The notes below the pieces were generated by a model. It saw only the letters and a list, made by a program, of their open reading frames with translations. It was not told the DNA's origin and did not search any database. The translations under genes were made by a program, and so were the position numbers. From contig NZ_CP060298.1 in NCBI RefSeq assembly GCF_014303395.1, positions 5,289,001-5,353,000 on the forward strand: a DNA stretch of 64,000 nt, written 5' to 3'. Positions 11,588 to 46,204 of this stretch are shown one piece after another (the stretch's first letter is position 1; every line of letters starts with the position of its first letter). Source of the stretch: Nakamurella sp. PAMC28650. Lineage in GTDB: Bacteria > Actinomycetota > Actinomycetes > Mycobacteriales > Nakamurellaceae.

Positions 11588-11750
11588 CGGTCCTCCTGGC
11601 GGGTTGTAGGTACCGATAATCCGCAGATCGGCAGAAACCTCAATAGTTCGTGCCGTTTGCGTTCGCCATCCACATCCCGGTGACCGAACGTTGTAGATTC
11701 CTACTACCGGAAGGTTCCCGGCACGGTGATCTGTCGATAATCTGATCGAC
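11588..11750. promoter_or_regulatory. divergent promoter region between permease and PucR genes
   Basis: 163 bases separate two divergently transcribed genes. The stretch is more AT-rich than its neighbours and contains dispersed GATC/CGATAATC repeats (around 11614 and 11733), but no convincing long palindrome. By position it should carry the site through which the PucR-type protein acts on the permease operon. Confidence 0.4.
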
Positions 11751-13220: not shown

Positions 13221-13342
13221 CCGACACCGTGCCGACCGGCGACCCGGGCCGCGACCGGGGTCCACTACCGCGACAACGGCAGACCGATGCTCGGATCGAC
13301 GCTGGTGCGCGACCCCGCCGTCCAGGATCTGGTCTTCGAGGG
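13221..13342 (+). other. short orphan coding-like stretch before IS1380
   Basis: Directly after the PucR stop, in the same frame, about 40 codons read through to a TAG inside the IS1380 target site; the last part (YRDNGRPMLGSTLVRDPAVQ) looks protein-like. There is no start codon or ribosome site. It could be the 3' remnant of a deleted gene or chance. Confidence 0.2.
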
Positions 13343-13346
13343 CTAG

Positions 13347-15033: not shown

Positions 15034-15182
15034 CTAGAGCCCATGGTCGTAGATGGCTTTCGGCTCTGGTGCGGCACCGATGACAAGGATGCCGTAGTTG
15101 TCGCTCATGGTGCTTGAAAACCGATATTGAACATCGTGGCCTATGGTTGGGGTTTTAAGGGGTAAACGCCTATAGTGCCCTC

Positions 15183-15926
15183 ATGATTGCTGAAAGTGCG
15201 GTAAATTGGCTGCACTCGGGGGCGCCCGTGGTGCTCGGTAGCTATGAGGACGCTGGTTCCGGCCGGACTTTTGTGGTGGCCCGGCCGGCGGACGAGCCGG
15301 CGCTCTGGCAGGACTACTTCCGCGGCGCCCGGCGCAATTATCGCCGGTACGGAGTCGAACAGGCGGTCAATTTCGACGAGGCCGCCACCGGTGAGTCCAC
15401 CGCAGTGTTCGTGGCGGCTGTCGATCCGAACGGGCAGGTGGTCGGAGGTCTGCGGGCTCAGGGGCCGTTTTCGCGGGTCGAGCAGGTGTACGCGCTCCGG
15501 GAATGGGCCGGGCGGAAGGGTACCGATCAACTCCGGAAAGAGCTCGTCCAGCGCATGGATGAAGGTGTCGTCGAGATCAAAGCGGTCTGGGTCGAACATG
15601 GCGCGGCGCGGCACGGTGAACTCACGACGACGATGTCCCGCGCCTTCGTGCATGTCCTACGACTGCTGCAAGTGCGCTACGCGCTCTGCACCGCCGCTTC
15701 GCACGCCCTTCCTCGGTGGCGGTCGAGCGGCGGCGTGGTCAGCACCGGCGTGAGCCCGGTTCCCTACCCGGACGAACGCTATCTGACCTGGCTGATGTGG
15801 TGGGACCGGCAGGAGATATCCAGGCTGATCTCCGCTGACCAGAACTGGAACATGGAACGGGAGTTGCAACAATTGCTCGGCTCCGCGGCCCGCGGGCACG
15901 CGACCGCGACGCCGGCCGCCCGATGA
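15183..15926 (+). CDS. GNAT/N-acyl amino acid synthase-like protein
   Basis: 247 residues, no signal peptide. The fold signature resembles acyltransferases of the GNAT/autoinducer-synthase type: a basic RGARRNYRRYG helix, the strand pair VFVAAVDPNGQVVGGLRA (residues ~79-96), and later MSRAFVHVLRLLQVRYALCT followed by SGGVVSTG, where acyl-CoA-binding family members have a comparable helix-strand-Gly turn. I infer acyl transfer, possibly to an amino group; no substrate is evident. It starts the signalling block and its stop overlaps the next start as ATGA, so it is stoichiometrically tied to the ThiF-nitroreductase fusion. An AT-rich leader (15110-15182) probably holds the promoter. Confidence 0.6.
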   Translation: MIAESAVNWLHSGAPVVLGSYEDAGSGRTFVVARPADEPALWQDYFRGARRNYRRYGVEQAVNFDEAATGESTAVFVAAVDPNGQVVGGLRAQGPFSRVEQVYALREWAGRKGTDQLRKELVQRMDEGVVEIKAVWVEHGAARHGELTTTMSRAFVHVLRLLQVRYALCTAASHALPRWRSSGGVVSTGVSPVPYPDERYLTWLMWWDRQEISRLISADQNWNMERELQQLLGSAARGHATATPAAR

Positions 15927-18121
15927 CCACCGTCTCCGACACGTCCGCTACCGGACGCGACACCGGTGCGGTCGCCGGTGTTGATCCCGATGCCCACCGC
16001 GCCGTCATGCTGTCCGAGGGAAATCAGTTGCACCGGGGAATGCTCGCTCACCTGCGGGCCACCGGGGACATCATCGTCATCGACCGGTCCGCCACCATCG
16101 CCGCAGAGTTGGCGGCCCTGCTGCCGGCGGTCAGCCCGGCGGAACTCGACGAGCCCGAACAGTGGGCGTGGTATCCGTGGCGCCGGACCCTGGTGAAAAT
16201 ACCGGGCCCGGTGAATTTCCGGCGGTTGCGTCTGGATCGGAATCGCCACAAGATCACTGCTCGGGAACAGGACGGCTTTCGCCGGCTGAACATCGGCATC
16301 GTCGGGTTGAGCGTGGGACATTCCATTGCTCACACGCTGGCGCTCGAGGGCCTCTGCGGGAGGTTGCGGCTGGCCGATCAGGACACCATCGAATTGGCCA
16401 ACCTGAACCGGATTCCCGCGACCATTTTCGATATCGGCATCAACAAGGCAGTGGTGCTGGCACGCCGCATCGCCGAGCTGGATCCTTACCTGCCCACCGA
16501 CGTCCTCACGAGCGGCATCAGCCAGAACAACATGGCCGAATTCTTCGACGGGCTCGACCTGGTGATCGAGGAATGTGATTCGCTCGACATCAAGGTAGCA
16601 GTACGTCAGGAGGCCCGGAAACGACGGATACCGGTATTCATGGAGACCAGCGACCGTGGCCTCTTCGACGTGGAGCGCTTCGATGTCGAGCGACAGCGGG
16701 AACCTTTCCACGGCCTGCTGGGACCGGTGGATCCCGATTCGCTGATCGGACTGACCACCCACGCGAAAGCGCCCCATGTGATGCGCATCCTGCAGACGAA
16801 CGAACTGTCGGCCCGCATGGCCGCGTCCATGGTGGAGATCGGTCACACGGTCTCCACCTGGCCGCAACTGGGAGGCGATGTACAGCTGGGCGGCGCCACG
16901 GTCGCGGCTGCGGTCCGGCGATTCGGTCGCGGTTGGAAACTGCCGTCGGGTCGGATCCGTGTCGATCTGGAGCACGCGCTGGACACCCTGGGTGCCGGGC
17001 CCGCGGCCGTGTCCCCGACGACGCCCGCGGCGCCCGGTATCGACCTGACCGAACAGGTGCCGTGCTCACCGCTCGACGCGGTGGCCCATGCCATCGCACT
17101 TGCCCCTTCCGGCGGTAACAGTCAACCGTGGAGGCTGACGCCGACACCGGACGGGATCGATGTGCGGATGGTCAGGGGTCGGACATCTGCAATGGATGTC
17201 GGCTTCCGGGGCAGCTATGTCGGTATCGGCGCCGCCACCTTCAACGCCCAGGTCGCCGCAGCCCGCCACCAGATGCGGGCCGGGCTCACCGAGTTCCCGC
17301 AGGGAACGGAATCGGACCTGGTGGTCTCGATCGTCCTCACCGCGGGCAGCGACCCGCGTCTGGCCGACCTGTACCCGTCCATGGTCCAGCGCATCACCAA
17401 CCGGAACATCGGTCGACGACAGCCTGTGGCCCAGCCCATGATCACGGCGTGGCAGCGGGAAGCAGGCGCCGCCGGCGCGCACCTGCACCTGATCACCGAG
17501 CCGGGCCGGATCGCGGCCCTGGCTGACGTCCTGGCCGCATCCGACCGCATCCGCTTTCTCACGCCGCTTCTGCACGAACAGATGATCGGTGAACTCAAAT
17601 GGCCGGGTCCACAACGTACTTCGCTGGGAATTGAGGTAGAGAGCCTGGGGCTGGACGAGTCCGATCTGGCGAAATTGGCCGTAGCAGGGCGGACGGACGT
17701 GATGGCGCAACTGGCATCCTGGAACCTGGGCGCGGCCCTGGGCGATCCGACCCGGGACCGCGTCAATTCCAGTTCCGCCGTCGCCGTGCTCACCGTGGAC
17801 GCGGACACACCCACCGACTATCTGCGCGGTGGCCGCGCGGCAGAACAGTTCTGGATCCGCGCCGGGCAGGCCGGACTGGCCGTGCAGCCGGTGTCACCGG
17901 TATTCCTCTACGCCAGATCCGAGGCGGATCTCTTGGCCCTGTCCCCCGATTTCCACCCGGAACTGCGCACCTTGCAGCGACGGTTCAACGAGCTCACCGG
18001 GATCGACGACGAGGATGCGATCGTCCTGGTGGTTCGCCTCAGTCACGACACTCCGCCCCCGGCGGTGCGCAGTCAACGGCTGGACCGCGCCCCCACGGTA
18101 GCCGCACCGGATCCGGACTGA
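15923..18121 (+). CDS. ThiF/E1-like and nitroreductase fusion protein (Rv1355c-like)
   Basis: 732 residues with two enzyme-like halves. Residues ~120-300 form an E1/ThiF Rossmann domain: NIGIVGLSVGHS in the nucleotide loop, RLADQDTIELANLNR matching the DxDxIxxxNLxR adenylation motif, and a lone Cys in EECDSLD. From ~385 on, LAPSGGNSQPWRL begins an FMN-dependent nitroreductase-like domain, with TNRNIGRR and a C-terminal RAGQAGLAVQPVSPV in family positions. The same domain order is known in mycobacterial Rv1355c (MoeY). E1 domains adenylate a carboxyl group; nitroreductases reduce nitro or dehydrogenate ring groups. A peptide or metabolite modification role is plausible but unproven. ATGA-coupled to the acyltransferase-like gene and 4 bases from the GGDEF-EAL gene. 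Confidence 0.8.
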   Translation: MTTVSDTSATGRDTGAVAGVDPDAHRAVMLSEGNQLHRGMLAHLRATGDIIVIDRSATIAAELAALLPAVSPAELDEPEQWAWYPWRRTLVKIPGPVNFRRLRLDRNRHKITAREQDGFRRLNIGIVGLSVGHSIAHTLALEGLCGRLRLADQDTIELANLNRIPATIFDIGINKAVVLARRIAELDPYLPTDVLTSGISQNNMAEFFDGLDLVIEECDSLDIKVAVRQEARKRRIPVFMETSDRGLFDVERFDVERQREPFHGLLGPVDPDSLIGLTTHAKAPHVMRILQTNELSARMAASMVEIGHTVSTWPQLGGDVQLGGATVAAAVRRFGRGWKLPSGRIRVDLEHALDTLGAGPAAVSPTTPAAPGIDLTEQVPCSPLDAVAHAIALAPSGGNSQPWRLTPTPDGIDVRMVRGRTSAMDVGFRGSYVGIGAATFNAQVAAARHQMRAGLTEFPQGTESDLVVSIVLTAGSDPRLADLYPSMVQRITNRNIGRRQPVAQPMITAWQREAGAAGAHLHLITEPGRIAALADVLAASDRIRFLTPLLHEQMIGELKWPGPQRTSLGIEVESLGLDESDLAKLAVAGRTDVMAQLASWNLGAALGDPTRDRVNSSSAVAVLTVDADTPTDYLRGGRAAEQFWIRAGQAGLAVQPVSPVFLYARSEADLLALSPDFHPELRTLQRRFNELTGIDDEDAIVLVVRLSHDTPPPAVRSQRLDRAPTVAAPDPD

Positions 18122-28722: not shown

Positions 28723-30280
28723 GTAACTGGTCAGGTGTGGGCGGGTAGCCAGGGGTTCCTGCTGGTCAGCTGGGTGAGGGCGGCCAGGGCTGGTACGCCG
28801 TGTTTTGCGGTCGTTTGTAGGTAGGAGCGGAGGTCCGCGAAGTGTCCGGCTCCTTTTTCGGTGCGCATGGTGCCCGATATTTTCTGTCGGATCTTGGTCA
28901 TGCGGATCTCTTGTTCGGCGGGGTTGTTGGTGAACGGGATCGCCGGGTCGGAGGCGAATTTGAGGTAGTCGACTTCTCTGCGGTGGATGCGGCGGGCCAG
29001 TGCTCGGTGTTTGCGGCCGATGGCGCCGTCGGGGTGGGTGGCGGCGAGGAGGGCGTGCCGGATCTTGACGGTTTCGGCGGCGATGACCGCCTGGTCGACG
29101 GGGGTGTCGGGGTGGGCGGCGGCCGCTTTGTGCAGGGTGAGCAGCGCGTCGCGGACTTGCTGCGCCCAGCACCAGGCGCCGGGCAGGTCTGTGTTGCTGG
29201 CGTGGTGGTGGTCGGTGACGGCCTGTAGCTCGCGGAGCAGATGCGCATTGCACAGCGCATGCCGCGCGGCGGTGTAGGTGTCATACGGTGCCCACGCGTC
29301 GTGGACGGCGGTGCCGGTGAAGCCGGGCAGGATGTTCATCTTGGCCATCGCTTCGGTACCGCGTCTGCGGTGGAAGAACAGTCTGGTGAAGGCCGGGGTG
29401 GACGCGGAGTGCAGCCAGTGGTTGCGACCTTCGCAGCGCAGCCCGGTCTCATCAAAGTGCACCACCGGAGAGGATTTCAAGCGGGCGGTGACCTGGGCCA
29501 AAAATTCGCCCAGGTCACCGGCGGCGCGACTGGTCACCGCGGCGACGGTGCCATCAGAGACAGGAATGCCGAACAGTTCGCTGATGGCCTGGGCGGTCCG
29601 CTTCTTGGACAGGAACTGCCCCATGAACAGATAGATGACGACCGCGCACATCACCGGCCCGTACTGCACGGGTCCGCCCGCCTGGGCGGGTGTGTCGCCG
29701 GTCGAGGTCTTCCCGCAGTGGCAGCGGCGGCTGATGATCTGATGTTCGGTGACGTGCACTTTGATCGGCGGGATGTCGAAGACCTGCCGACGTGAGCAGC
29801 CAACCTCGGTCGCATCGGCCAGATCCGATCCGCAGCCAGTGCAGCAGCTCGGTTCGTGGCGGATCACCACATCCGGGTCGGCGACCTGGGCTAAAGTCTG
29901 CCCGCGGTGCCCGTCCTGTCCGCCGGGCTTGCGTGTCGACGGCGTGCGCAGCGACCTGGTCTTCGCCTTGCCGGGTCCGTCCGCCGATGGTGGCTTCGAG
30001 GAGTTCTGCGAGTTGGTCCGCAACCGTGCTTCCAGGTCCGCGACCCGCACCTTTAATGCCGCATTCTCGGCGCGGAGGATGTTCAGTTCGGTGCGCATTT
30101 CGACGATCAGTTCCACCAGTTCGGCGTACGTCGGCTGCGTCATTCCATTATTATCGCATCAGACAACACCATTGTTCGGCGACACGCCGACACGGCTCAC
30201 CCCACATAGATCGACATTCTCCGGTCTATTCGCCCAATGAATGACAGTCTATTTCACCGCGGTGAGACCTGACCAGTTAC
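28723..30280 (-). mobile_element. IS66-family insertion sequence
   Basis: 1558 bp. Both ends begin GTAACTGGTCAGGT when read inward, a perfect 14-bp terminal match with the GTAA start typical of IS66. The flanks carry the identical 8-mer CGCACGAG at 28715-28722 and 30281-30288, the duplication length of the family. Only the large transposase (TnpC type) is present; no tnpA/tnpB accessory genes are visible. Inserted in a small gene of the conjugative element. Confidence 0.95.
28731..30143 (-). CDS. IS66-family transposase
   Basis: 470 residues. An N-terminal leucine-zipper-like helix (LVELIVEMRTELNILRAENA), zinc-finger segment (CCTGCGSDL ... CHCGKTS), and the DDE core with VVHFDETGLR, AVHDAWAPY and NNPAEQEIRMTKIRQK. 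Full length and apparently intact. A single-ORF IS66 relative. The ATG at 30143 lies 137 bases inside the right end. Confidence 0.95.
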   Translation of the reverse strand: MTQPTYAELVELIVEMRTELNILRAENAALKVRVADLEARLRTNSQNSSKPPSADGPGKAKTRSLRTPSTRKPGGQDGHRGQTLAQVADPDVVIRHEPSCCTGCGSDLADATEVGCSRRQVFDIPPIKVHVTEHQIISRRCHCGKTSTGDTPAQAGGPVQYGPVMCAVVIYLFMGQFLSKKRTAQAISELFGIPVSDGTVAAVTSRAAGDLGEFLAQVTARLKSSPVVHFDETGLRCEGRNHWLHSASTPAFTRLFFHRRRGTEAMAKMNILPGFTGTAVHDAWAPYDTYTAARHALCNAHLLRELQAVTDHHHASNTDLPGAWCWAQQVRDALLTLHKAAAAHPDTPVDQAVIAAETVKIRHALLAATHPDGAIGRKHRALARRIHRREVDYLKFASDPAIPFTNNPAEQEIRMTKIRQKISGTMRTEKGAGHFADLRSYLQTTAKHGVPALAALTQLTSRNPWLPAHT

Positions 30281-33021: not shown

Positions 33022-33134
33022 GAACAGCACGACCGATCGCCCGTCCGATCGCTGCCTGCAGCGCACTGGCCGTGAGCTGGTCAAACGGTGGGTTAAGCGC
33101 GACGACATTTGCGCCCGAAAGGCGGGCGCAATGA
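33018..33134 (+). CDS. 38-residue coupled frame between transfer ATPase and replication-relaxation gene
   Basis: ATG at 33018 overlaps the ATPase stop (ATGA) and the TGA at 33132-33134 overlaps the next ATG (33131). The product (MRTARPIARPIAACSALAVS ...) is basic with no recognised domain. Coupling at both ends is the only support; it may simply pass ribosomes to the downstream gene. Confidence 0.35.
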   Translation: MRTARPIARPIAACSALAVSWSNGGLSATTFAPERRAQ

Positions 33135-33892
33135 GCAAGCGAATTTCACGAGAGCGGCTGGCACGCATCACGTCCGAGTTGACGCCGCGTGATCGCGAGA
33201 TGGTCGAGTTCCTGGCGCGGGTGAAGCTCGCGACGGGTAGTCAGCTGCGCCGCGCCGTCTGGACCGATCAGTCCGCTGCCGGAAAGCGTTCGGCCCGTCG
33301 AGCCCTGGCGCGCCTGGTCTGTTGGCGCGTGCTCGCCCGCCTGGAACGTCGGCAAGGTGGCCTCGGCAAGGGCAGTGATTCGTGGACCTATGCCCTCGAT
33401 ACGGCCGGCCAGCGGCTGCTCGGCGAGGCCGGAGCCAGACGTCCGCACCTACCGCGCCCGGCAATGTGGGCCCACGTGCTGCTCGGCACCGAAGTCGCGG
33501 TGACCCTAGCCGAGGCGCTGCGCGGAACCGATCGAACCGTTGCCATCTGGCAGGGGGAGCCCGAGTGCTGGCGGTCTTACACCGGGTCCCACGGACAACG
33601 CCTGACCTTGAAACCGGACGCATTCGTCGACGTCTTGTCGCCGGAATTCCACGATGTGTCATACCTCGAAGCCGACACTGGCAGCCAGTCGCGGACGGTG
33701 ATCCGGGCGAAGCTGGCGGCCTACCAGCGCTACGCCGCGACCGGCCTCGACCAACGAATGCAGGACGGCATATTCCCGCTAACCGTGTTCGTCACGGTGA
33801 CGCCAGAGCGTCAGGCCGTTCTCGTCGACCTTGTCAACGGCCATCTTGAGGTCCCCGCTGGTGGCCAGTTGATTGTCCCCACCCGTTGCTGA
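33131..33892 (+). pseudogene. replication-relaxation-like protein, 3' end displaced by IS21
   Basis: The intact part (33131-33831) encodes a winged-helix N-terminus (LTPRDREMVEFLARVKLATG, then SARRALARLVCWRVLARLER), a middle linker and a nuclease-like core (KPDAFVDVL, YLEADTGSQS) typical of the replication-relaxation family found in actinobacterial mobile elements. After 33831 the frame enters the IS21 end and stops at 33892 with 20 foreign residues. The real C-terminus is at 40228-40318; 701 + 91 bases make 264 codons in frame. The family is proposed to act in DNA processing for replication or transfer. Confidence 0.75.
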
Positions 33893-33897
33893 GGTTT

Positions 33898-34705
33898 TCA
33901 GGTGTTCGTGGTGGCCTCCCGGTGGTTGCGTGCGTCTTTCATGCGGCGGGATTCGCCGTGGGTGACCACGATGGTGGCTTGGTGCAGGAGCCGGTCCAGG
34001 ATGCTGACTGCGGTGGTGTGTTCGGGCAGGAAGTGGCCCCATTGGTCGAAGGGCCAGTGGGAGGCGATCGCCAGGGAGCGGCGTTCGTAGGCGGCGGCGA
34101 CCAGGCGGAACAGCAGTTGGGTGCCGGTGTCATCCAGCGGTGCGAAGCCGACTTCGTCGATGATGATCAGGTCGTTGCGGATGAGGGTGTCGATGATGCG
34201 GCCGACGGAGTTGTCGGCCAGGCCGCGGTAGAGCTGTTCGATGAGATCTGCTGCGGTGCAGTACTTTACTTTCATTCCGGCGGTGACGGCGGCCTGGCCC
34301 AGTGCGATGAGGGTGTGCGATTTGCCGGTGCCGGGCGGTCCGACCAGGCCAGATTCGACTTGTCGGTGATCCACTGGAGGTCGGCGAGGTAGCTGAACGT
34401 CTTGGCCGGGATCGAGGAGCCTTCGACGTCGAAGGTGTCCAGGATTTGGTGACGGGGAACGCGGCGGCTTTGAGCCGGTTGGCGGTGTTGGAGGCATCGC
34501 GGGCGGCCAGCTCAGCTTCGATCAGGGTGCGCAGCAACTCCTCCGGGGTCCAGCGTTGCGTTTTGGCGGTGAGCATCACCGCGGCGGCGATGCCGCGGAT
34601 GGTGGACAGCTTCAGCCGGCGCAGTCCGGCGGTCAGGTCGGCGGGCAGTTCGGGGACGACCGGTGTTGCCGGCGGCGTAGACCTGGTTGAGGTGGTGGTG
34701 GTCAT
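33898..34705 (-). pseudogene. istB: IS21 helper ATPase IstB, two frameshifts
   Basis: The N-terminus (LRRLKLSTIRGIAAAVMLTA) starts at 34705, coupled to istA by ATGA. The first frame is lost near VTKS (about 34450), where one C seems missing; the next frame (DTFDVEGSSIPAKTFSYLAD) is lost near 34350, where GG stands for GGG before GLVGPPGTGKSHTLIALG. The last frame then carries Walker A GPPGTGKS and Walker B LIIIDEVGF and ends at 33898. The order and content are normal IstB, so only the two single-base losses break it. Confidence 0.85.
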
Positions 34706-35598
34706 GGGGTGACTCCTGTTGCGGTGGTGGGGTTGTGGCCGGTGACCGCGGCGAGGTTGTAGTCGGCCAATGAGCGGGTGCCGGCGGCGGGGAGGGCGAC
34801 GATCAGGGCTCCGCCGGGTGGGACCTGGGTGGGTGTGGCGGTGCCGGCGGCCAGGATGGAGCGGACGTCGGCGGCGCGGAACCGTTTGAACGCCACCGCC
34901 CGGCCCAACGCCGCAATGAGTTGGTCGTGGCCGTGGGCGGCGCCCAGGGCCAGCAGCACGTCCAGTTCGGAGCTCAGGCGGGTGTTGCCGATGGCGGCGG
35001 CGCCGACCAGGAACGCCTCCGCGGCCTCGCCCAAAGCGCAGAACTGCCGCTCGGAGGCGGTGCGGGGTCGCGGTGCCCGTGAGGGCGCGGGCCGCGGCCC
35101 GCCGTAGTGGACGTCCTGGACGGACACCTCGCCGGGGGCGACCAACAGGTGTTCGGCCAGGACTTCACCGGTGCTGGGGTCGCCGATCACCAGGTGGCCG
35201 GCGGCCTGGACGAGGCGGACCTGCCGGCCGATCATGGTGGTCGGCACGGAGTAGCGGGCCGAGGCGAACCGGACGCAGGAGAGCCGGTCGACCTTGCGGA
35301 TCACCGGCGCCGGTCCGAAGTCCAACCGCAGAGAGGGCAACGGTCGCAACACTTCCCGCTCCACCACCAGTCTTTCGTCGGGGATGGCGGCGATCTCCGA
35401 ATGCACCCGGGCGTTGACCTCCGCGCACCAGATCTTCGCCGCAGCGTTCGCCGCATCGACCCCGACCGGTCGGCCTGCCAACTGTGCTTCGGTGAGCAGC
35501 GGCACCACCAGATCCCGCTGCGCGTAGCCGACCAGGTTCTCCACGATTCCTTTGGACTCCGGGTCCTGGGCGTGGCAGAAGTCCGGGGTGAACCCGTA
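34702..35598 (-). pseudogene. istA: 3' part of IS21 transposase istA
   Basis: Coding resumes at 35598 with GFTPDFCHAQDPESKGIVEN, then LVGYAQRDLVVPLL and the C-terminal Mu-like domain (VDRLSCVRFASARYSVPTTM). The catalytic Glu of the DDE triad (in SKGIVEN) is here, apart from the first two acids, which lie 3.8 kb away. The join to the 5' part is at a TAC codon. Ends in ATGA with istB. Confidence 0.85.
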
Positions 35599-35651
35599 TT
35601 CTCTGAACTTTTTTCACTGAATGCGGTGGCCTGACGCCGAGCTGATCGTTG

Positions 35652-38099
35652 TCAGCGCTTGCCTGTGATGCCCTCTGGCTGCCTTCTGGCGGTAGGGTCA
35701 CCGAGGTTGACGGTGTTGTTTCGGCCGGAGGTGCGCCGGTTGTCGATCTGGCTGATCTTTTCGGTTGCTCCAGCGAGACTTACTTCCAGTCCTTCGATTT
35801 CACCGAGCCAACCCTCGTTCTGGGCTTCGGTGATCCGCGCCTGCAGGTTGTCGCGGATGTCGACGAGGCGGGGCCGCTGGTCGGGGTCGGGCCAGAGCAT
35901 GGAGCAGCGGACGCAGGCGTGTTCGTGGATGCAGGGGCTTCCGAACGCGCGGGCGCAGGTGCCGATCGAGACTTTCCTTCGCTCGAAGTGGCCGAGAAAT
36001 TCCTGCCATTCGTCGTCGGTGGGGACGCGGTATTCCTCGGTGGGCCGCAACGAGCGTCGGCGGGCGAGGAACGCCAGGTGGGCGTGGATGGTTTCTTCCG
36101 GATAGATCGCTTTGTAGCCGAGGGTCACGTTGATGTCGCGATGCCCGGCGATGATCTGGGCGATGTGCGGTGGGAGGCCGCCGAGGATTGCGCCGGTGAT
36201 GAACATCCTGCGGAAGTCGTGTGGGGTGTAGTGCAGCGGTTCGTCCTCGCCGGGATTGTTCAAACCGGCTTTGGTGAGAGCTTCGGAGAGGAACTTGCCG
36301 ACGCTGGTGGTGGAGATTGCCCGGCTCTCCGTGCCGATCCTTCGTTGGAACAGCACCGGCGCCGGCGCTGCCCAGAGTCGCTCGCGTGTGTCATAAGCCG
36401 AGACCAGCGGGACAGCCCCGGAGCGCAGACGAATGCGAGAGATGATGGTGCTGAGCACTTCTGCCAGTTCCGGGCTGACCACGAGCAGCCGTTCGGTGTC
36501 GGTCTTGGACGGCAGGATCTGCAGCAGCGGGACGATCTGTCCGGTGGTGGGCAGCCGATACTGCACCAGGCTGTGATGGTTGAGCTCGAGGAGTTCCTCG
36601 GCCCTGACGCCGGTGGTGCGTAGGACCTCCACGATCGCCCAACTCCAGAACGCGTGGTCCTCCTCACGGGTGAGGTTGCGCCGCTTCCCGGTGATCGGGT
36701 CATCCGCCCAGATGGTCTCGCGGGCTCCGCGTGCGACGACAGCTCTGATCAGGGTGGCACCGGCGGCCGTGAACGGCTGTCCTGGTTCTGCTTGGGTCGC
36801 CGCGTCGAGCAATGATCTGGCGGTGGTGCGGTGCTGATCGACCGCCCGGACCAGGGCCGGCAGGGCGGGCAGCAGCCGGCGGGTCCGTGCATCCATGCGT
36901 GCTTTGAGGCGCCGTTTCGCTTTGCGTCGGTCGATCTCTTCCTCTCCGACCGGGCAGGGCACCACCCACCGGCCCCAGCGTGCAGGGTCCTCGACCGCCC
37001 AGTGCGCCAGATCAAGATAGAAGGCCCTGACCGGTGTCAGACATTCCCGGTAGTTGATGCGTTCAACGGTCACGGCCGTCCGTTCACCGGCAGGCAGAGT
37101 TCTCGTCTTGGTGAAAGTGCGAAGCCGACGTTTCCAGTCGTCGGCGACCTGAGCAGACAGATGCAGGGTGTCGATGCCTGGGTGGTGGGCCTCAATGTCG
37201 GCCCAGAACCGTTTGCCCAGGTAGTAGGACAACGAGTCCAAGCTGGTGTAGTCCAGCGCCGGTTGACGTTCCCGCAGGTAGTCCACGAACAGGTCCCGGA
37301 CGGCGGGATTGACCAGCTGGTAGCGGTCGATCAGTTGCTCCGGTGTCTGCTGCCCGCGGGTGCGCAGCCCGCGGAGCATCGCCGGTGCGTCGTCGCTGAA
37401 CACTCCGAGGTCGCGCAGGACCCGGTAGAAGGTGGTGCGACCACTTGATGCGTCCGGGCGTGACCGGTCTTCCGCGGCGAATAACTCCACCACATCGCCG
37501 ATGGTGATCTGTGCGATGGTGCCGCCCTTGGCTGCCAAGATCAGCGCGCAACGGTAAACGCACTGGGTGGCAGTGGGTTTGGACACGCCACCGTCATCGG
37601 CGCAGAGTTCTCGGAGCCGCGCGAAACCCGACTGATCCCGGGAAGCGGCCAGGTTCCGCACCAGCAGGCCACCCCGACCGCCACCGCCGCCGACCAGCCA
37701 GGCCAGTGTGGGTCGGAACAGGTCGGCGCTGATCGCCAACGGCAGCGCCTCCACCAACGCTTCCTGATGCCAACGCCGGTGGCCGCGAACACCGAGCCAC
37801 TCGTTAGGAACCTGCCGCCAATCCGCGCCGGCAGTATCAGCGCCGCTCACCAACCACCGGTCCTGCCACGTCGCGCCAGGCATAGCGCTGAGCCAGTGAA
37901 GGAGCAAACCGATCCCACACAGCCGTTTGCTGTGTTCACCGGTCGCCGACCGGACGGGCGGCATCGAGGCGAGATGTTCGCGCGCCAACTCCGCAGACCA
38001 CCAGGTCGCCGGCCATGACTGGCCTGCGGCCCGCGGCGCGGGTTGCGCTGGCGGTGTCGCCGGCGAGGCAACTACCGAGCCGATCGCCGTCGCGTTCAC
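35652..38099 (-). CDS. TnpB-like large tyrosine recombinase
   Basis: 815 residues, long for the family. The C-terminal catalytic domain has the first Arg in TTGVRAEELLELNH, HDFRRMFITGAILGG (His-x-x-Arg), IIAGHRDINVTLGYK (His and following Tyr region). The N-terminal ~400 residues include a core-binding domain and a helical extension. A zinc-binding-like cluster (CARAFGSPCIHEHACVRCSM) lies near the C-terminus, as in several Tn554-TnpB relatives. It overlaps the preceding recombinase by ATGA. The two proteins probably act together at the element ends. Confidence 0.88.
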   Translation of the reverse strand: MNATAIGSVVASPATPPAQPAPRAAGQSWPATWWSAELAREHLASMPPVRSATGEHSKRLCGIGLLLHWLSAMPGATWQDRWLVSGADTAGADWRQVPNEWLGVRGHRRWHQEALVEALPLAISADLFRPTLAWLVGGGGGRGGLLVRNLAASRDQSGFARLRELCADDGGVSKPTATQCVYRCALILAAKGGTIAQITIGDVVELFAAEDRSRPDASSGRTTFYRVLRDLGVFSDDAPAMLRGLRTRGQQTPEQLIDRYQLVNPAVRDLFVDYLRERQPALDYTSLDSLSYYLGKRFWADIEAHHPGIDTLHLSAQVADDWKRRLRTFTKTRTLPAGERTAVTVERINYRECLTPVRAFYLDLAHWAVEDPARWGRWVVPCPVGEEEIDRRKAKRRLKARMDARTRRLLPALPALVRAVDQHRTTARSLLDAATQAEPGQPFTAAGATLIRAVVARGARETIWADDPITGKRRNLTREEDHAFWSWAIVEVLRTTGVRAEELLELNHHSLVQYRLPTTGQIVPLLQILPSKTDTERLLVVSPELAEVLSTIISRIRLRSGAVPLVSAYDTRERLWAAPAPVLFQRRIGTESRAISTTSVGKFLSEALTKAGLNNPGEDEPLHYTPHDFRRMFITGAILGGLPPHIAQIIAGHRDINVTLGYKAIYPEETIHAHLAFLARRRSLRPTEEYRVPTDDEWQEFLGHFERRKVSIGTCARAFGSPCIHEHACVRCSMLWPDPDQRPRLVDIRDNLQARITEAQNEGWLGEIEGLEVSLAGATEKISQIDNRRTSGRNNTVNLGDPTARRQPEGITGKR

Positions 38100-39337
38100 C
38101 GCGAGATGTTCTTGCCGAAAAGCACTTCCATCGTCTCGGGTCGATATCCCGGTGCGAGCGGCGGAACCGCCCGGGCGGCCGCGCGTTGGGACTGCTCGGC
38201 GTGGTGAGTGAGCAGCCTTCGGATCACGTCCTCCTTGCGAGGTGTCAGGTAGATCTGTGTGGTGCTGAGCTGGGCATGACCCAACACCAACTGCACGTCG
38301 GTCAACGGGAGCGCCGGATCCTCAGCCATCCGGTAGGCCGCGGTATGCCGCAACGCGTGCAACGTCGCCGCGGTGCCCGCCCGCTCGTTCACCCGCTCGA
38401 ACATGCGGTGCACCGCGTGATAGGTCAACGGGCGCGGCGGGCGTCGCAAGGTCCACCACAACGGCTGGCCACGCCCCGGCGGGATGACCCCATCCATTTC
38501 CAACTGGTAGAGCCGCAACCAGACGAACGCATCGGTCGACGCCGGAAGTTGCTGCGCAGCACCAGAACCCTTGCGGACCACGGTGATCAGCTGACGACCA
38601 GGATCGGCACCGCCCGAGGTGACGGACAACAGTTCCGAAGCGCGCGCCCCCGTCGAGACATAGAAGGCCACCAGTGCCCGATCTCGATGCGAGGGTAGTC
38701 GCGCGAAGATGTCGTTGAACTCTGCATCCGGAATGCTGCGCGGGATCCGGCTCGGGACGACGGGCCGATAAAGGCCGGCCCGTTCATTGCGATACGGCTC
38801 CATCGGATTGTGATGAGCGTGTGCCCGGCCACCGCGACGAGAACGATCCAACGGAAACGGGTTCAGGATCGGGCCAGTGCCGCAATCGCGGTGGAAGTCA
38901 TAGAAGCCCCGCAACACCGACTCGCTGTGGGCGCGTACCGACACCGCATAGGCCATGCCACCCGGAGCGGCCGCCACCGACCCGACCGCCGGTTCGTCCG
39001 CCGGCCGCCGCCAATGCGGCCGCGGAGACCGGCCGGTGACCTGGAGCCAGCGGGAGAAGTCCCGGGCCTCGACCCTCGTCGCCCGATCCCACCGCACCCC
39101 GACCGCCCACAAAAACCGGAACCACCGCAGCAGATCCATCCCGTAGGACCGGGCCGTCGACGCCGACCGACCAGCGGCCTGCAACTCCCGGAAGAACTCC
39201 GACACCGACTCCACCGGGTCCCCGGCCACATCCAGCAGCCGATACGGCTCCGACACCTCGCCGGTCCCGAACAGCCGACCGACCAACGGAACTACCAGCC
39301 GAGCCCGATCCGCCAGCCCCTCTCCCACGATTTCCAT
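38096..39337 (-). CDS. TnpA-like tyrosine recombinase
   Basis: 413 residues. The SAM-like core-binding N-terminus (SEFFRELQAAGRSASTARSY) precedes a full catalytic set: STGARASELLSV (Arg), Lys in VVRKGSG, HALRHTAAYRM (His-x-x-Arg), VLGHAQLSTTQIYL (His and Tyr nucleophile). First gene of the element, coupled to the larger recombinase. It appears intact, so the Tn554-like element may still move even though its IS21 host is broken. Confidence 0.9.
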   Translation of the reverse strand: MEIVGEGLADRARLVVPLVGRLFGTGEVSEPYRLLDVAGDPVESVSEFFRELQAAGRSASTARSYGMDLLRWFRFLWAVGVRWDRATRVEARDFSRWLQVTGRSPRPHWRRPADEPAVGSVAAAPGGMAYAVSVRAHSESVLRGFYDFHRDCGTGPILNPFPLDRSRRGGRAHAHHNPMEPYRNERAGLYRPVVPSRIPRSIPDAEFNDIFARLPSHRDRALVAFYVSTGARASELLSVTSGGADPGRQLITVVRKGSGAAQQLPASTDAFVWLRLYQLEMDGVIPPGRGQPLWWTLRRPPRPLTYHAVHRMFERVNERAGTAATLHALRHTAAYRMAEDPALPLTDVQLVLGHAQLSTTQIYLTPRKEDVIRRLLTHHAEQSQRAAARAVPPLAPGYRPETMEVLFGKNISR

Positions 39338-39426
39338 CCACGATTTCTAGCATCATCAGGTGATCCTCTCGCCGACGACACGCCGCCTTTGAGCTGCAGT
39401 TACACACCAAGTAGTTCAGTCAACGG

Positions 39427-40059
39427 GTAGTGTCCGGCCAACCGGATGAAATCCGGTGTGGGGATGACGACGTTGGCCACGACACCGCCTTTGAGGCACG
39501 CCATCCGGTCGGTCAGCAACTTGCCCGGGACACCACCGGCGGCCTGCAGCGCTTCGGCCAGGAAACCCAAAGTGGTGGAGGACCTCTCGTTGGTGGCGAA
39601 GGCGACGAACCGCCACCTCGACCAGGCCAGCACCGCGCAGAACAGGTGCAACCCGGCGCCGACATCAGCCCAGTCGAACACCATGAACGCGCCCGGTTCC
39701 CACACCGCCGGGCGGCGACCACGGTGATTACTGCGGCGCCACAACGCTTTCTGGTCTGCGACCAGACGCCGGAAGTTCCGGGCCGACCCCTGATAGCCGG
39801 CGGCCTGAGCCACCGGCAGCAGCCGCTTCGCCGAGATCCGGCCCTTCGACGTTTCGATTCGTTTGGCGACCAGCTCGGTCACCGCCTCGAAGTTCCGGGC
39901 CCGCGGCGCCGGCACCGGCCGGTCCTGGCCGGCCTCGGCGCGTTCCACGACCCGCCGCACAGTCTTGTGGGCGGTGGCGCAGATCTGCGCTGCGCCCCGG
40001 TAGGTGCCGACCTCGCGGTAGGCGGAAATGATGTCCATTCGTTCCCTCGCTGACAACAT
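39427..40059 (-). pseudogene. istA: 5' part of IS21 transposase istA
   Basis: ATG at 40059 with GGAG upstream. N-terminal helix-turn-helix (YREVGTYRGAAQICATAHKT), then the DDE domain up to VFDWADVGAGLHLFCAVLAW (first Asp) and KLLTDRMACLKGG (second Asp). It is cut after PTPDFIRLAGHY; the open frame then reads nine foreign codons to a stop at 39400. The catalytic Glu part is at 34702-35598. Confidence 0.88.
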
Positions 40060-40227
40060 GGAGCTCCCTGGGCGGTGCGGTGACTGGTTGGCACCGCCAC
40101 CGTCACCGCCCAGGGCCTCACGGCTCGACACGACACGACGAGCAAGGGGTGGGGACTTTCAACTGGCCAAAACCGGGGACCTCACCTGGCCACCACCGGG
40201 GACTTTCTCATGGCCACGGACAGACCT

Positions 40228-40318
40228 GCTGGCGGAGCTCCCGAGCACGGTCTGGCCGATGTTCGCAGTCGGCCTGGTGTCCGACGTGCCGCGATTGTTC
40301 ACCGGAGGCGGCTCGTGA
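40228..40318 (+). pseudogene. displaced 3' end of the replication-relaxation gene
   Basis: Beyond the second GACCT copy (40223-40227), the sequence reads LAELPSTVWPMFAVGLVSDV and stops at 40318. In frame with 33131-33831 once IS21 is removed; joined across the single GACCT the protein would be 263 residues. Confidence 0.75.
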
Positions 40319-41746: not shown

Positions 41747-43127
41747 GGCTCTTGTGACGTTCTCGTGGGTGGTTTGACCCCTGGTTGTGGGCGACACACC
41801 GGGCTGCGTATAGGTTCTGGCTTATCTAGGGTCAGTCACTATCCAGGAGCACGGTGTGCGCGGTGTAACGATATGGCGAAAGCTGCTCGGTGTCGAGCAA
41901 CTGCAGGTGTGCGATGTGGCGTGGGAGGAGGCCGACGACCGGCAGGTGCTGGTCGTTTCGGTGCGTGCGACGAAGGGCGCCCGGAGTAGGTGCAGTCGAT
42001 GCCGGCGTAGACGGCCGGGCTATGACCAGGGCGGCGGAACCCGGCGGTGGCGGTCGCTGGACTGGGGGTCGACGATGGTATTCCTGCAGGCTGCGGCCCC
42101 GCGGGTGAACTGCCGGACGCACGGGGTGGTCGTCGCGGCGGTGCCGTGGGCCCGACCCGGCGCGCGGGCAACCCGAGCGTTTGAAGACCAGTGCGCGTGG
42201 TTGGCGGCGCACACCGCTTCGTCGGTGGTGGCGCAGTTGATGCGGACGTCGTGGCGGCACGTGAGCGCAATCATCGAGCACGTCGTCGCCGACGGTTTGG
42301 CCGGCCGGGACGTGCTCGCGGGGCTGCAGCGGATCGGCATCGATGAAATCTCCCACCGCAAAGGCCAGCGGTATCTGACGTGCGTGGTCGATCAAGACTC
42401 CGGCAGATTGGTGTGGGCCGCACCGGGCCGCAACAGCGACACCCTGGGTCGGTTCTTCGACCAACTCGGCCCAGAACGGGCGGCGGCGTTGACGCACGTC
42501 TCGGCCGACGGGGCGCAGTGGATCCACGACACCGTGACGGCCCGCGCGCCGCAGGCGGTGCTGGGATTGGATCCGTTTCATATCGTGGGGTGGGCCACCC
42601 GGGAGTTGGACAAGGTCCGTCGTCAGACGTGGAACACGCTGCGGGGTAACAGTAGCTCTGCGCAGGCGTCGTCGGTGAAGGGCAGCCGCTGGGCATTGCT
42701 GAAAAACCCGGCGGACCTGTCCCCGGAGCAACGCGGGTCCCTCGCCTCGATCGCCCAGACCAACCGGCATCTGTATCGGGCGTATCTGCTGAAGGAGCAA
42801 CTGCGCGCGGTGTTCCAGGTCAAGGGCCAGGCCGGCCGTGAACTGCTGGCCGGCTGGATCGCCTGGGCCCGCCGCTCCCAACTCCCCGGCTTCATCGCCC
42901 TGGCCGCAACGTTGAAGCGGTTCCAGCAGCTGATCTGGAACACCCTGATCCACCACATGAGCAACGCCCAATCCGAGGCCACCAACACCCACCTACGGGC
43001 CTTGACCCGCAGGTCGTACGGCTTTCACAGCCCAGAAGCGTTGATAGCCATGGCAATGCTCACCCGCGGCGGGTTATGCCCGCCGCTTCCCGGACGCTAA
43101 ACCACCCACGAAAACGTCAGGAGACCC
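41747..43127 (+). mobile_element. ISL3-family insertion sequence
   Basis: Left end GGCTCTTGTGACGTT and right end, read inward, GGGTCTCCTGACGTT share 11 of 15 bases and both run into TCGTGGGTGGTTT; GGCTCTT is the usual ISL3 start. It carries one full transposase. The 8-bp flanks (TAATAGTA and CTAAATGG) do not match, so the expected target duplication is absent, consistent with a rearrangement next to the IS3 remnant. Confidence 0.85.
41856..43100 (+). CDS. ISL3-family transposase
   Basis: 414 residues from GTG 41856. The N-terminal zinc finger has CSRCRRRRPGYD and VNCRTHGVVVAAVPWARPGA; the DDE domain follows with IGIDEISHRKGQRYLTCVVD (first Asp), LGLDPFHIVGWATRELDKVR (second Asp) and SNAQSEATNTHLRALTRRSY (Glu). 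All family hallmarks are intact. Alone within the element. Confidence 0.92.
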   Translation: MRGVTIWRKLLGVEQLQVCDVAWEEADDRQVLVVSVRATKGARSRCSRCRRRRPGYDQGGGTRRWRSLDWGSTMVFLQAAAPRVNCRTHGVVVAAVPWARPGARATRAFEDQCAWLAAHTASSVVAQLMRTSWRHVSAIIEHVVADGLAGRDVLAGLQRIGIDEISHRKGQRYLTCVVDQDSGRLVWAAPGRNSDTLGRFFDQLGPERAAALTHVSADGAQWIHDTVTARAPQAVLGLDPFHIVGWATRELDKVRRQTWNTLRGNSSSAQASSVKGSRWALLKNPADLSPEQRGSLASIAQTNRHLYRAYLLKEQLRAVFQVKGQAGRELLAGWIAWARRSQLPGFIALAATLKRFQQLIWNTLIHHMSNAQSEATNTHLRALTRRSYGFHSPEALIAMAMLTRGGLCPPLPGR

Positions 43128-43675: not shown

Positions 43676-44225
43676 CAAGTTGACCGAACTGCGGGACCTC
43701 GTACCCGAGCGCGCCCTGACGCCTTCAGAGGTCCGCCAGGTGCTAGAACGACAAGCTACCCGGCTACTGAAGTTGGCCGATGTCCATGGTCCGGGCGTCC
43801 CGATCGACGAGGTCGCGACCTCACTTCCGCGCGTCGTGGTCAAGAATGTCCCCGACCTGCCGTCATCCGGCCGCGCCCAGTGGAGCGGTCAAGCTTGGGT
43901 GCTGTTCGTTGACTCGACCGAGGCGAAGGTGCGACAGCGGTACAGCTTGGCTCACGAACTGGGGCACGTAATCTGGCATCCGCTCGCAGCGACCGTGCTC
44001 CCGGACACACCGAAGCAGTTGGCAGAGGACCGGCTCGAACTGGCCTGCGAGTACTTCGCCGCCTGCTTGCTGATGCCGCGCATGTGGATGAAGCGGGCCT
44101 ATTTCGAGGAAGGCATCCAAGACGTAGCCTCGATCTCCCGGTTGGTCAACGTCTCATGGGTCGCGATGCGTGTGCGGCTCGAGCAGCTCGGGTTCGTCCC
44201 GGCCGCTGAAAGGGAGGCAGCATGA
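43653..44225 (+). CDS. ImmA/IrrE-family metalloprotease
   Basis: 190 residues from ATG 43653, with AGGAGG 8 bases upstream. The zinc motif HELGH is at ~101-105 (RYSLAHELGHVIWHP) and the third-ligand helix is RLELACEYFAACLLMP. Proteins of this family cleave partner XRE repressors, here presumably the gene just upstream, to induce the element. The stop overlaps the recombinase start as ATGA, so repressor, protease and recombinase form one operon. Confidence 0.9.
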   Translation: MMETKTRSKLTELRDLVPERALTPSEVRQVLERQATRLLKLADVHGPGVPIDEVATSLPRVVVKNVPDLPSSGRAQWSGQAWVLFVDSTEAKVRQRYSLAHELGHVIWHPLAATVLPDTPKQLAEDRLELACEYFAACLLMPRMWMKRAYFEEGIQDVASISRLVNVSWVAMRVRLEQLGFVPAAEREAA

Positions 44226-46204
44226 AGACTGCCGTGCTCTACCTACGCGTTTCGACCATCAGCCAAGTTCAGACTGACTACGACTCGGACGGCATCTCGA
44301 TTGCAGCTCAACGCGTCGCTTGCACGCGCAAAGCCGAGCAGATGGGGGTGAGCGTGATCGACGAGTATGTCGAACCCGGGCGCAGCGCCACAACCGTACT
44401 CAACCGGCCGGTCTTCCAGACGATGATGGCGCGGCTAAAGCAGGAGCGCGACGTCGACTACGTGATCGTCTACAACCTGTCGCGACTGAATCGCAACCGT
44501 GTCGATGATGCCCAGGTCCTGATGGCAATGCGCGCCTCCAAGATCACCTTGGTGTCGGCGCAGGAGAACATCGACGCCACGCCTGCAGGCCAGCTGATGC
44601 ACGGCATCCTCGCTGCCTTCAACGAGTACCGGTCGATGGCCGATGGGGCCGACATCCGGTACAAGATGGGACAAAAGGCGAAGTCCGGCGGCACCCTGAC
44701 CCTTGCTCCGGTGGGCTACCTCAACATTCGTGATCAGTTCGAGGGGCATGAGGTGCGCTCGGTCATTCTGGACCCCGATCGTGCCCCGTTCATCAAACTG
44801 GCCTTCGAGCTATGCGCTACGGGTGACTACACCATGACCCGGATCGCAAAGACACTCGCTGATCGGGGCATGCGGATGCGTGCCCGCGTCGGGAACGCGC
44901 CCGGGCTGCTGTCATCTAAGTCGCTGCCGAAGATTCTGCGGGATCGCTACTACCTCGGTGTCGTCGTCTACCAAGGTAACGAGTACGCCGGCCGGCACGA
45001 GGCGCTGATCGACCGCACGTTGTACGACAAGGTCCAGTTGGTTCTCGATGCTCGGGCCGCCCGCGACGGTGAACGCGAACGTAAGCACCACCATTACCTC
45101 AAGAGCACCGTTTGGTGCGGCCGATGCCACGATGCTGGCCGCGAATCTCGCTTCATCCTCATCAACGCGAAGGGCCGAGGCGGGCTCTACCGCTACTTCA
45201 TGTGTAGCTCCCGCCCTGATCATGAATGCGACTTGCCGTACCTGGCGGTCGAAGACGTCGAAGCGGCCGTGATTGACCACTACGCGACCCTGCGACTGCC
45301 AGCCGGGTTCGCTGCACGGGTCCGCACGATTTTGAACGGAACCTTGACCGACGAACAGTCGACTCAGCGGCTGTCGCGCGACCACCTCAACGCCACGCTC
45401 GCGTCGCTCGATCGTCAGGAAGAGAACATGCTCGACTTCATCGCCAGCGGCGACCTGGCGTCGGGCAAGATTCGGGCTCGACTGGCGGCAATCACGGAGG
45501 AACGCGAACGGGTACGGGCAGACCTCGCGGAAGCCCGGCCCCCGCTCGACGCCGGGGCAGCGATCGTCGAAAGCGCGCTCGATCTGCTCGACGACCCGCA
45601 AGGGCTCTACCGTCAGACGACCGACAAGGTCCGCCGGCAGCTCAACCAGGTCATCTTTGAGCGGATGTACGTCGACCCAGGCGGCGTGACCTCCGACGAG
45701 TTGGCCGCACCGTTCGGCGACTTCGTTCGTCGCCCGCTACGACGACCCGTCCACGAGCGTCAGCGTCCGAACCGGCCCCCAACGCGAAACGGCACCCCGA
45801 AGGGTGCCGTTCAACGAACTATTTCCGACCGGCTAGGGCGGCTTGGCTTGGGCCAGGGTTCTAGTAAGGCTGAAATGGTGGAGCTGCAGGGAATCGAACC
45901 CTGGACCTCTTCGATGCGAACGAAGCGCGCTACCAACTGCGCTACAGCCCCGAACCCGGATCGCTCCGTGAACAGGGTGAAGAATACCAGCGCCGCGATG
46001 CTCTCCAGAACACCTGGCCCGGCCAACGGGTCGGACCGGAGTCACGCTGCCCGGAACGACTCCCCGACCAGCACCGGGACCTTGGTGGAGACGTTCTCCT
46101 GGGCCGCGAGGGCGATCTCGCTGCCGAAACCGTCGCTGATCAACTCCTGGCCGGACGCACAGGCGATCAGAGATTTGCCGAGGCTGCGTCCGAGGTCACG
46201 GTAG
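44222..46204 (+). CDS. large serine recombinase (integrase)
   Basis: Serine-integrase architecture: resolvase domain with nucleophile S11 in LYLRVSTISQ and YNLSRLNRNRVDD, a recombinase domain (LAPVGYLN, LPKILRDRYYLGVVVYQG), a zinc ribbon (WCGRCHDAG ... MCSSRPDHECD) and a coiled-coil tail. The frame has no stop until 46204 and passes through a terminator hairpin and, antisense, the whole tRNA-Ala gene (GIEPWTSSMRTKRATNCAT is that tRNA read backwards). The natural protein probably ends near residue ~520 in the free element, with the stop supplied by its other end. Functions in excision and integration. Confidence 0.85.
   Translation: MKTAVLYLRVSTISQVQTDYDSDGISIAAQRVACTRKAEQMGVSVIDEYVEPGRSATTVLNRPVFQTMMARLKQERDVDYVIVYNLSRLNRNRVDDAQVLMAMRASKITLVSAQENIDATPAGQLMHGILAAFNEYRSMADGADIRYKMGQKAKSGGTLTLAPVGYLNIRDQFEGHEVRSVILDPDRAPFIKLAFELCATGDYTMTRIAKTLADRGMRMRARVGNAPGLLSSKSLPKILRDRYYLGVVVYQGNEYAGRHEALIDRTLYDKVQLVLDARAARDGERERKHHHYLKSTVWCGRCHDAGRESRFILINAKGRGGLYRYFMCSSRPDHECDLPYLAVEDVEAAVIDHYATLRLPAGFAARVRTILNGTLTDEQSTQRLSRDHLNATLASLDRQEENMLDFIASGDLASGKIRARLAAITEERERVRADLAEARPPLDAGAAIVESALDLLDDPQGLYRQTTDKVRRQLNQVIFERMYVDPGGVTSDELAAPFGDFVRRPLRRPVHERQRPNRPPTRNGTPKGAVQRTISDRLGRLGLGQGSSKAEMVELQGIEPWTSSMRTKRATNCATAPNPDRSVNRVKNTSAAMLSRTPGPANGSDRSHAARNDSPTSTGTLVETFSWAARAISLPKPSLINSWPDAQAIRDLPRLRPRSR
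45787..45810 (-). terminator. UUCG-loop terminator behind tRNA-Ala
   Basis: On the minus strand AACGGCACCC-TTCG-GGGTGCCGTT: a perfect 10-bp stem with a stable UUCG tetraloop, followed by TTCG, about 66 bases past the 3' end of tRNA-Ala. It should terminate the tRNA transcript; it also lies inside the recombinase frame on the other strand. Confidence 0.8.
45876..45951 (-). tRNA. tRNA-Ala (anticodon CGC)
   Basis: 76 bases with encoded CCA. The acceptor arm GGGGCTG/CAGCTCC contains the G3-U70 pair that marks alanine tRNAs, the D arm and GGTTCGATTCC T arm are canonical, and the anticodon loop TTCGCAT gives CGC at 45916-45918, reading GCG. The mobile element's recombinase abuts its 3' side, but no second copy of the 3' half was seen at the other end of the element. 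Confidence 0.97.

Follow-up and report, generated by a model that had tools for sequence, protein, structure and literature searches.

Tn554-related transposons that pair a long recombinase gene with a typical one have been described in actinobacteria, a subset of them without TnpC (Van Houdt et al. 2012, PMC3414803, in the accessible text), and R. jostii plasmid pRHL2 (NC_008270) is listed in the table of that class (PMC3414803). Since the accessible parts of that paper give tnpA and tnpB differently in text and table, the two genes are called short and long recombinase throughout. As for insertions in transposase genes, one SE-6945 element is reported in insJ of IS3 (PMC10214605, accessible text), and no report of transposase-gene targeting by the TnpC-less class was found in the open-licence PubMed Central literature as far as its text is accessible.

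A three-level nest in a Replic_Relax gene

The stretch of DNA under study (the window; 64,000 nucleotides, positions 5,289,001-5,353,000 of a 5.63-Mb genome in one contig) holds a three-level nest, in which an IS21-family element interrupts a Replic_Relax gene and has its own istA cut by a smaller element, called here the inner element (Table 1). The initial annotation had described the GACCT cut of the Replic_Relax gene by an IS21 with TGTC/GACA ends and the cut of istA at a TAC codon by a 3.83-kb Tn554-like element with two tyrosine recombinases. Both cuts were confirmed, the second by the restored istA frame and by PF00589 matches in both recombinases, and the identity of the two elements was borne out by profile matches and relatives; of the coordinates given, only the exact positions had to be moved, by 1-2 bases.

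The IS21 ends are fixed because a second copy in the same genome (L088, positions 10375-16766) matches exactly 33832-40222 and its flanks are unmatched, and they read TGTC at 33832 and GACA at 40222 with GACCT on either side. When the IS and one GACCT are removed, the Replic_Relax frame is restored at the 264 codons announced (263 aa and a stop) with the junction at residue 234. The joined protein aligns clearly across this junction to L121 (residues 4-263, 30% identity) and L123 (residues 10-261), while the alignments of the other six of the eight homologues tried end at residues 229-238 or 253 in five cases and at residue 205 in one. Removal of the inner element by script leaves an IS21 of 2,560 bp with an istA open frame of 541 codons. 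Uninterrupted homologues display the predicted junctions at this level as well: a genome of the same genus (L091) has an uninterrupted IS21 with 80% identity over bases 1-1699 of the 2,560, through the junction, an istA of this type is annotated, without interruption, on an R. ruber plasmid, and CACTACGGGTTC is found at the empty site of both.

The outer element resembles the IS21 family in having an istA transposase gene (NF033546), an istB ATPase gene (NF038214/PF01695), 5'-TG..CA-3' ends and a short, 5-bp duplication (GACCT here, CCATC at the second copy), and differs from it in that both genes are damaged, istA being interrupted and istB frameshifted. Elsewhere in the window, a 660-codon frame at 44222-46204, which we take to resemble a large serine recombinase, overlaps a tRNA-Ala (CGC) gene at 45876-45951 on the opposite strand, and the two could possibly be the integrase and the attachment site of the outermost element.

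Table 1. Features of the nested locus, in positions of the window.
Feature	Position	Strand	Basis
Replic_Relax (PF13814) gene, 5' part (remainder at 40228-40318)	33131..33831	+	Pfam 3e-32; joined frame 263 aa
Replic_Relax gene, 3' end	40228..40318	+	joined frame
GACCT target duplication, left copy	33827..33831	.	sequence
GACCT target duplication, right copy	40223..40227	.	sequence
IS21-family element with inner element aboard, 6,391 bp	33832..40222	-	exact ends from second copy L088, flanks different
istB, two frames	33898..34705	-	PF01695, NF038214; alignment to L091; comparison with L088
istA, 3' part	34705..35598	-	PF22483, NF033546; empty-site alignment to L091
Tn554-related two-recombinase transposon, including left hexamer TACCCG (39429-39424)	35599..39429	-	ends compared with relatives
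Long tyrosine recombinase, 815 aa	35652..38099	-	PF00589 1.5e-10; alignment; model; motifs
Short tyrosine recombinase, 413 aa; 4-bp overlap with long gene	38096..39337	-	PF00589 2.3e-17, PF02899; catalytic motifs conserved
istA, 5' part; last codon is the His of His-Tyr-Gly-Phe	39430..40131	-	NF033546 8.7e-32; L091 site

Genes and ends of the inner element

The inner element measures 3,825 bp from motif to motif and 3,831 bp with its left hexamer. The catalytic motifs of its long recombinase are conserved and lie in the C-terminal half, the N-terminal half being helical in the predicted model (mean pLDDT 79), and an alignment of relatives reveals an invariant Cys/His cluster past the catalytic Tyr, at residues 715-732, which is perhaps zinc-binding. 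Among the best 50 of 176 Foldseek matches of the model, XerA and Cre come first, with weak scores (best E 1e-3) and without aligned ranges, and are uninformative on the N-terminal half.

The element has the adjacent short and very long tyrosine recombinases of the TnpC-less class, both with a PF00589 match, and the short recombinase of the pRHL2 element is 72% identical to that of the window, the ends of the pRHL2 element lying at the IS21 His-Tyr-Gly site. Taken strictly, the Tn554 family has tnpA, tnpB and tnpC; no tnpC is present in the inner element, as only 53 bp separate the stop of the long gene from the right end, and a hidden TnpC behind the long gene was rejected for want of room. 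The family is also site-specific and makes no ordinary target duplication, and here the inner element agrees with it, codons being reused and the hexamer overlap standing alone at the ends. Three other identities were rejected: RIT elements need three recombinase genes and the inner element has two, BIM elements pair a recombinase with a conserved protein of unknown function and both partners here are recombinases, and SE elements need intA, tfp, intB and srap, whereas the inner element has no more than two genes.

The left end reads GGACAC-TACCCG-TTGACTGAACT, from 39429 downwards, and the right end AGTTCAGAGAA-TACGGG-TTC, to 35599; the two form an imperfect inverted repeat. Since TAC flanks the element on either side, the Tyr codon can be assigned to either side of the cut. 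Relatives were sampled as 80 of the 86 loci that match the short recombinase. With at most two mismatches, the left end was found in 78 of 82 copies, as a hexamer, in most cases NNNCYR, that precedes TTGACTGAACT. At the same tolerance 26 copies show the right end AGTTCAGAGAA; it was not found in the remaining 56, some of whose contigs end earlier and whose divergent members may differ there. The left hexamer is the same in two relatives (L016 and L017) whose right hexamers differ, and the right hexamer of the window element is what stands at the natural site of L091 and L127, which indicates that the left hexamer travels with the element while the right one is the target's. Furthermore, left and right hexamers match at positions 1-3 in 21, 17 and 15 of 25 copies (L033 and L038 excluded) against 11, 13 and 9.8 after shuffling, a sum reached by 0 of 10,000 shuffles, which ignore relatedness, while positions 4-6 match no better than shuffled ones.

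Target genes of the element and its relatives

Targets were counted on the 76 left flanks with 60 bp or more (74 from relatives' copies, the window and a further copy in the same genome, L089), which fall into 69 clusters, L027-L029 being one of them. Four copies with shorter flanks (L010, L038, L056, L068) and four whose left end was not found (L052, L053, L054, L059) were excluded, L010 and L068 being tallied separately for the His-Tyr site. Mobile-element genes were found at 46 of the 69 clusters, other genes at 18 and no assignment at 5, many of the profile matches scoring under the curated cut-off because the genes are interrupted. This preference of the family for transposase genes had gone unremarked in the initial annotation. 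Support for the 46 comes in 41 cases from a profile match, from tblastn to recombinases or istA, or from tblastn or blastp to a supported flank; two (L045, L055) were assigned through the neighbouring ATPase gene and three (L044, L019, L085) by eye or by a match below the cut-off.

Among these 46 clusters, 16 concern IS21, with 10 at the His-Tyr-Gly-Phe site and 6 elsewhere in istA; 5 lie in an ATPase gene and 4 in the TnsB-like transposase gene that adjoins it; kin elements are entered in their long gene in 5 clusters, and a further 5 lie in Tn3 transposases, 3 in IS110, and 8 in others including IS3, IS256, IS1380 and ISKra4. The ATPase is counted as mobile because the frame that precedes it in L063 matches solved TnsB transposases (1e-8), and a fragment in L049 is similar to the C-terminus of that frame (2e-17). 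The 18 other clusters comprise 11 in DNA ligase genes, all in one outlying subgroup and two of them (L072, L074) assigned by eye, 4 in NucS-like genes, a label resting on one match below the cut-off (L022) and on reading, and one each in DUF4259, NUDIX and methyltransferase genes. A flank in a same-genus genome (L103) is an IS1380-type transposase gene.

Single codons are used repeatedly and across different hosts. The IstA His-Tyr-Gly-Phe site is occupied in 12 distinct IS21s (the 10 clusters, L010 and L068), with slight variation of the residues, such as Tyr-Gly-Leu in L026, and with only the left side seen in L008, L009, L012, L027 and L089; plasmids L128 and L133 are entered at the same site. 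Likewise, a single codon of the IstA C-terminal domain, residue 1 of the L132 flank, opens the right flanks of L024, L031, L033, L035 and L066, and a single ATPase codon opens those of L011, L014, L015 and L063. L042, L043 and L131 are inserted, in both orientations, close to position 346 in the Tn3 transposase profile. One IS21 type carries at the same codon elements of two well-supported lineages (L008 and L032), and one istA of Rhodococcus koreensis (L026, 1727-9684) holds two elements at two sites about 0.3 kb apart. On plasmids, for which 10 of 154 records matching the short recombinase were looked at, the target is IS21 in L128, L132 (right flank), L133 and L136 and Tn3 in L131; a recombinase gene in L130 is below the cut-off, L129 was assigned by eye, and L134, L135 and L137 are without assignment.

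Several further observations were made by eye. In the distant subgroup found at ATP-dependent DNA ligase genes of Mycolicibacterium and Mycobacterium (L071-L080), what directly follows the long recombinase reads in 8 of 10 loci as a ligase gene start, as if it were element-borne. The NucS-like gene of L022, L025, L030, L039 and L064, a weak profile match, is apparently entered at one site in both orientations, and L018 and L020 have entered kin elements at a shared position of the long recombinase gene, behind 'ERLL'. A CRISPR-like repeat array stands upstream of the insertion in L067 (4610-5350).

As a control, segments 3 kb upstream of the insertions were scanned with Pfam, and with NCBIfam for the 10 that lacked an informative Pfam match. 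A transposase was found in 2 of 20 segments, as compared to 13 of the same 20 insertion points that are supported as lying in mobile-element genes (Fisher p=0.0004), or 12 of 20 without L049 (p=0.001); the 20 were the first of the 42 that remained after exclusion of L026 and L041, whose segments lie in another element copy. Searching the segments by tblastn with flank queries found nothing. Moreover, target class follows the recombinase tree, with 21 changes over 68 rows where 200 shuffles gave no fewer than 44, and with 12 against a shuffled minimum of 15 within the window's clade, which suggests that lineages keep their target and switch sometimes. That clade (36 rows, SH-aLRT 99 in a quick tree) has 28 rows in mobile-element genes, 5 in NucS-like genes and 3 without class, of which L037 is the DUF4259 gene.

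The same observations would also fit recombinases that merely read a short DNA sequence, incidentally conserved in transposase genes, with no adaptation to life in mobile elements, an explanation that we regard as a serious one, if slightly short of probable. Target specificity is reported for Tn554 and SE elements in the sources accessible to us, and the window's genome, which has no strict full site CAYTAYGGNTTCNNCC, has half-sites TACGGNTTCACCC at three further places, all unoccupied and two of them in what look by eye like host genes. What speaks against it is that, across the tree, mobile-element genes of many families outnumber host genes as targets.

Copies in this genome and order of insertion

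The second copy of the interrupted IS21 (L088) lies at 1,076-1,083 kb, within its own 5-bp duplication CCATC. It differs from the window copy at two points in 6.39 kb, a mismatch at 33979 and a base lost near 34444 in istB of the window copy; by alignment, the net -1 shift of istB relative to the homologue L091 is common to both copies. A third copy of the inner element, truncated and overlooked in the initial annotation, occupies the same codon of a different IS21 (L089). A copy-number artefact was rejected, as the three places lie in a one-contig genome and their flanks differ. No other match to the window istA was found in the genome at E<=0.001, though the more distant IS21 of L089 is present. 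Near the second copy, an IS66-like fragment (L088, 1-951) is joined to a sequence whose counterpart in the window stands 12 kb apart from it, beside an IS3-type frame (28723-29506; 41747-41918), the families being assigned by eye.

The initial annotation had deduced the order of events as arrival of the outermost element, then IS21, then the Tn554-like element. This order is unsupported, because the same interrupted IS21 recurs with a different duplication and only two differences. Where the inner element can ride inside the outer one, a cleanly nested structure does not by itself give the order of insertion. It could still be that IS21 entered the Replic_Relax gene first and that the inner element came later, and separately also into the other IS21 copy; two insertions at one codon are possible because the element is specific for that codon, and it has entered the different IS21 of L089 as well. 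We hold this to be unlikely given the near identity of the two copies, their common istB frameshift and their different duplications, and one insertion followed by one move of the block is simpler than two insertions. The inner element was probably aboard the IS21 before the latter entered one or both of its sites.

Discussion

The reading that we favour, and with good confidence for one drawn from sequence comparison, is that a TnpC-less Tn554-related transposon, site-specific through its two tyrosine recombinases, entered an IS21 at the DNA encoding the IstA His-Tyr-Gly-Phe, and that the block moved later. As judged by comparison between copies, the ends, the reuse of codons, the passage of the left hexamer with the element and of the right hexamer with the target, and the matching of the first three bases all belong to this system. 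The inner element would form a circular intermediate and exchange strands with its target over a six-base overlap, both recombinases presumably recognising the target jointly. It would have entered istA first, and the broken IS21 would then have moved as a single block with transposase supplied from elsewhere. Counting against this explanation are the 18 of 69 clusters in other genes and the 5 without assignment, the 56 of 82 copies in which the right end was not found, the neglect of relatedness in the hexamer shuffles, and the need of the block for an outside transposase, no further istA match being found in the genome at E<=0.001. That there is no recognition of transposase genes at all, insertion being broad and persisting in common ISs where it is harmless, would agree with the minority of insertions in ordinary genes and with target DNA of different classes having little in common, and is nonetheless very improbable in view of the single codon used in 12 distinct IS21s, the similar reuse in the IS21 C-terminus, the ATPase and the Tn3 transposase, and the tracking of the recombinase tree by target class.

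On a wider scale, we tentatively propose, without holding it to be the probable case, that the family is a widespread, mainly actinobacterial lineage specialised as a transposon parasite. It would use conserved transposase codons (in IS21, Tn3, IS1380, IS110, IS3, TnsB-like genes with their ATPases, and its own kin) as attachment sites, disable the host element, ride with it when outside transposase moves it, and switch between families by changes of hexamer and recombinases. If transposase genes are true attachment sites, such elements act as natural brakes on ISs and as their passengers. With its ends and target codons defined, the class is readily found and its hexamer rule open to testing.

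Tn554 of Staphylococcus carries cargo, whereas the inner element has neither a cargo gene nor TnpC. The two have in common two tyrosine recombinases, target specificity, imperfect inverted ends and a six-base footprint (PMC10214605, accessible text). In the inner element the six bases carried along remain gene-proximal, whereas those of Tn554-related elements pass from the left of the donor to the right of the new copy, provided that the ends are named alike (PMC10214605, accessible text). SE/GInt elements likewise have several recombinases, spacer bases at their ends and selected targets (PMC10214605, PMC5385486, accessible text), and SE elements differ in having four genes and in that their spacer ends up on the opposite side. 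The closest likeness is to the TnpC-less class itself (Famint36/41, PMC3414803), with its adjacent typical and very long recombinases, mostly actinobacterial distribution and lack of TnpC, to which the inner element is linked by homology to a listed member. The ends and target genes given here are absent from the accessible text of that description; the class is already known, and its targeting is apparently new.
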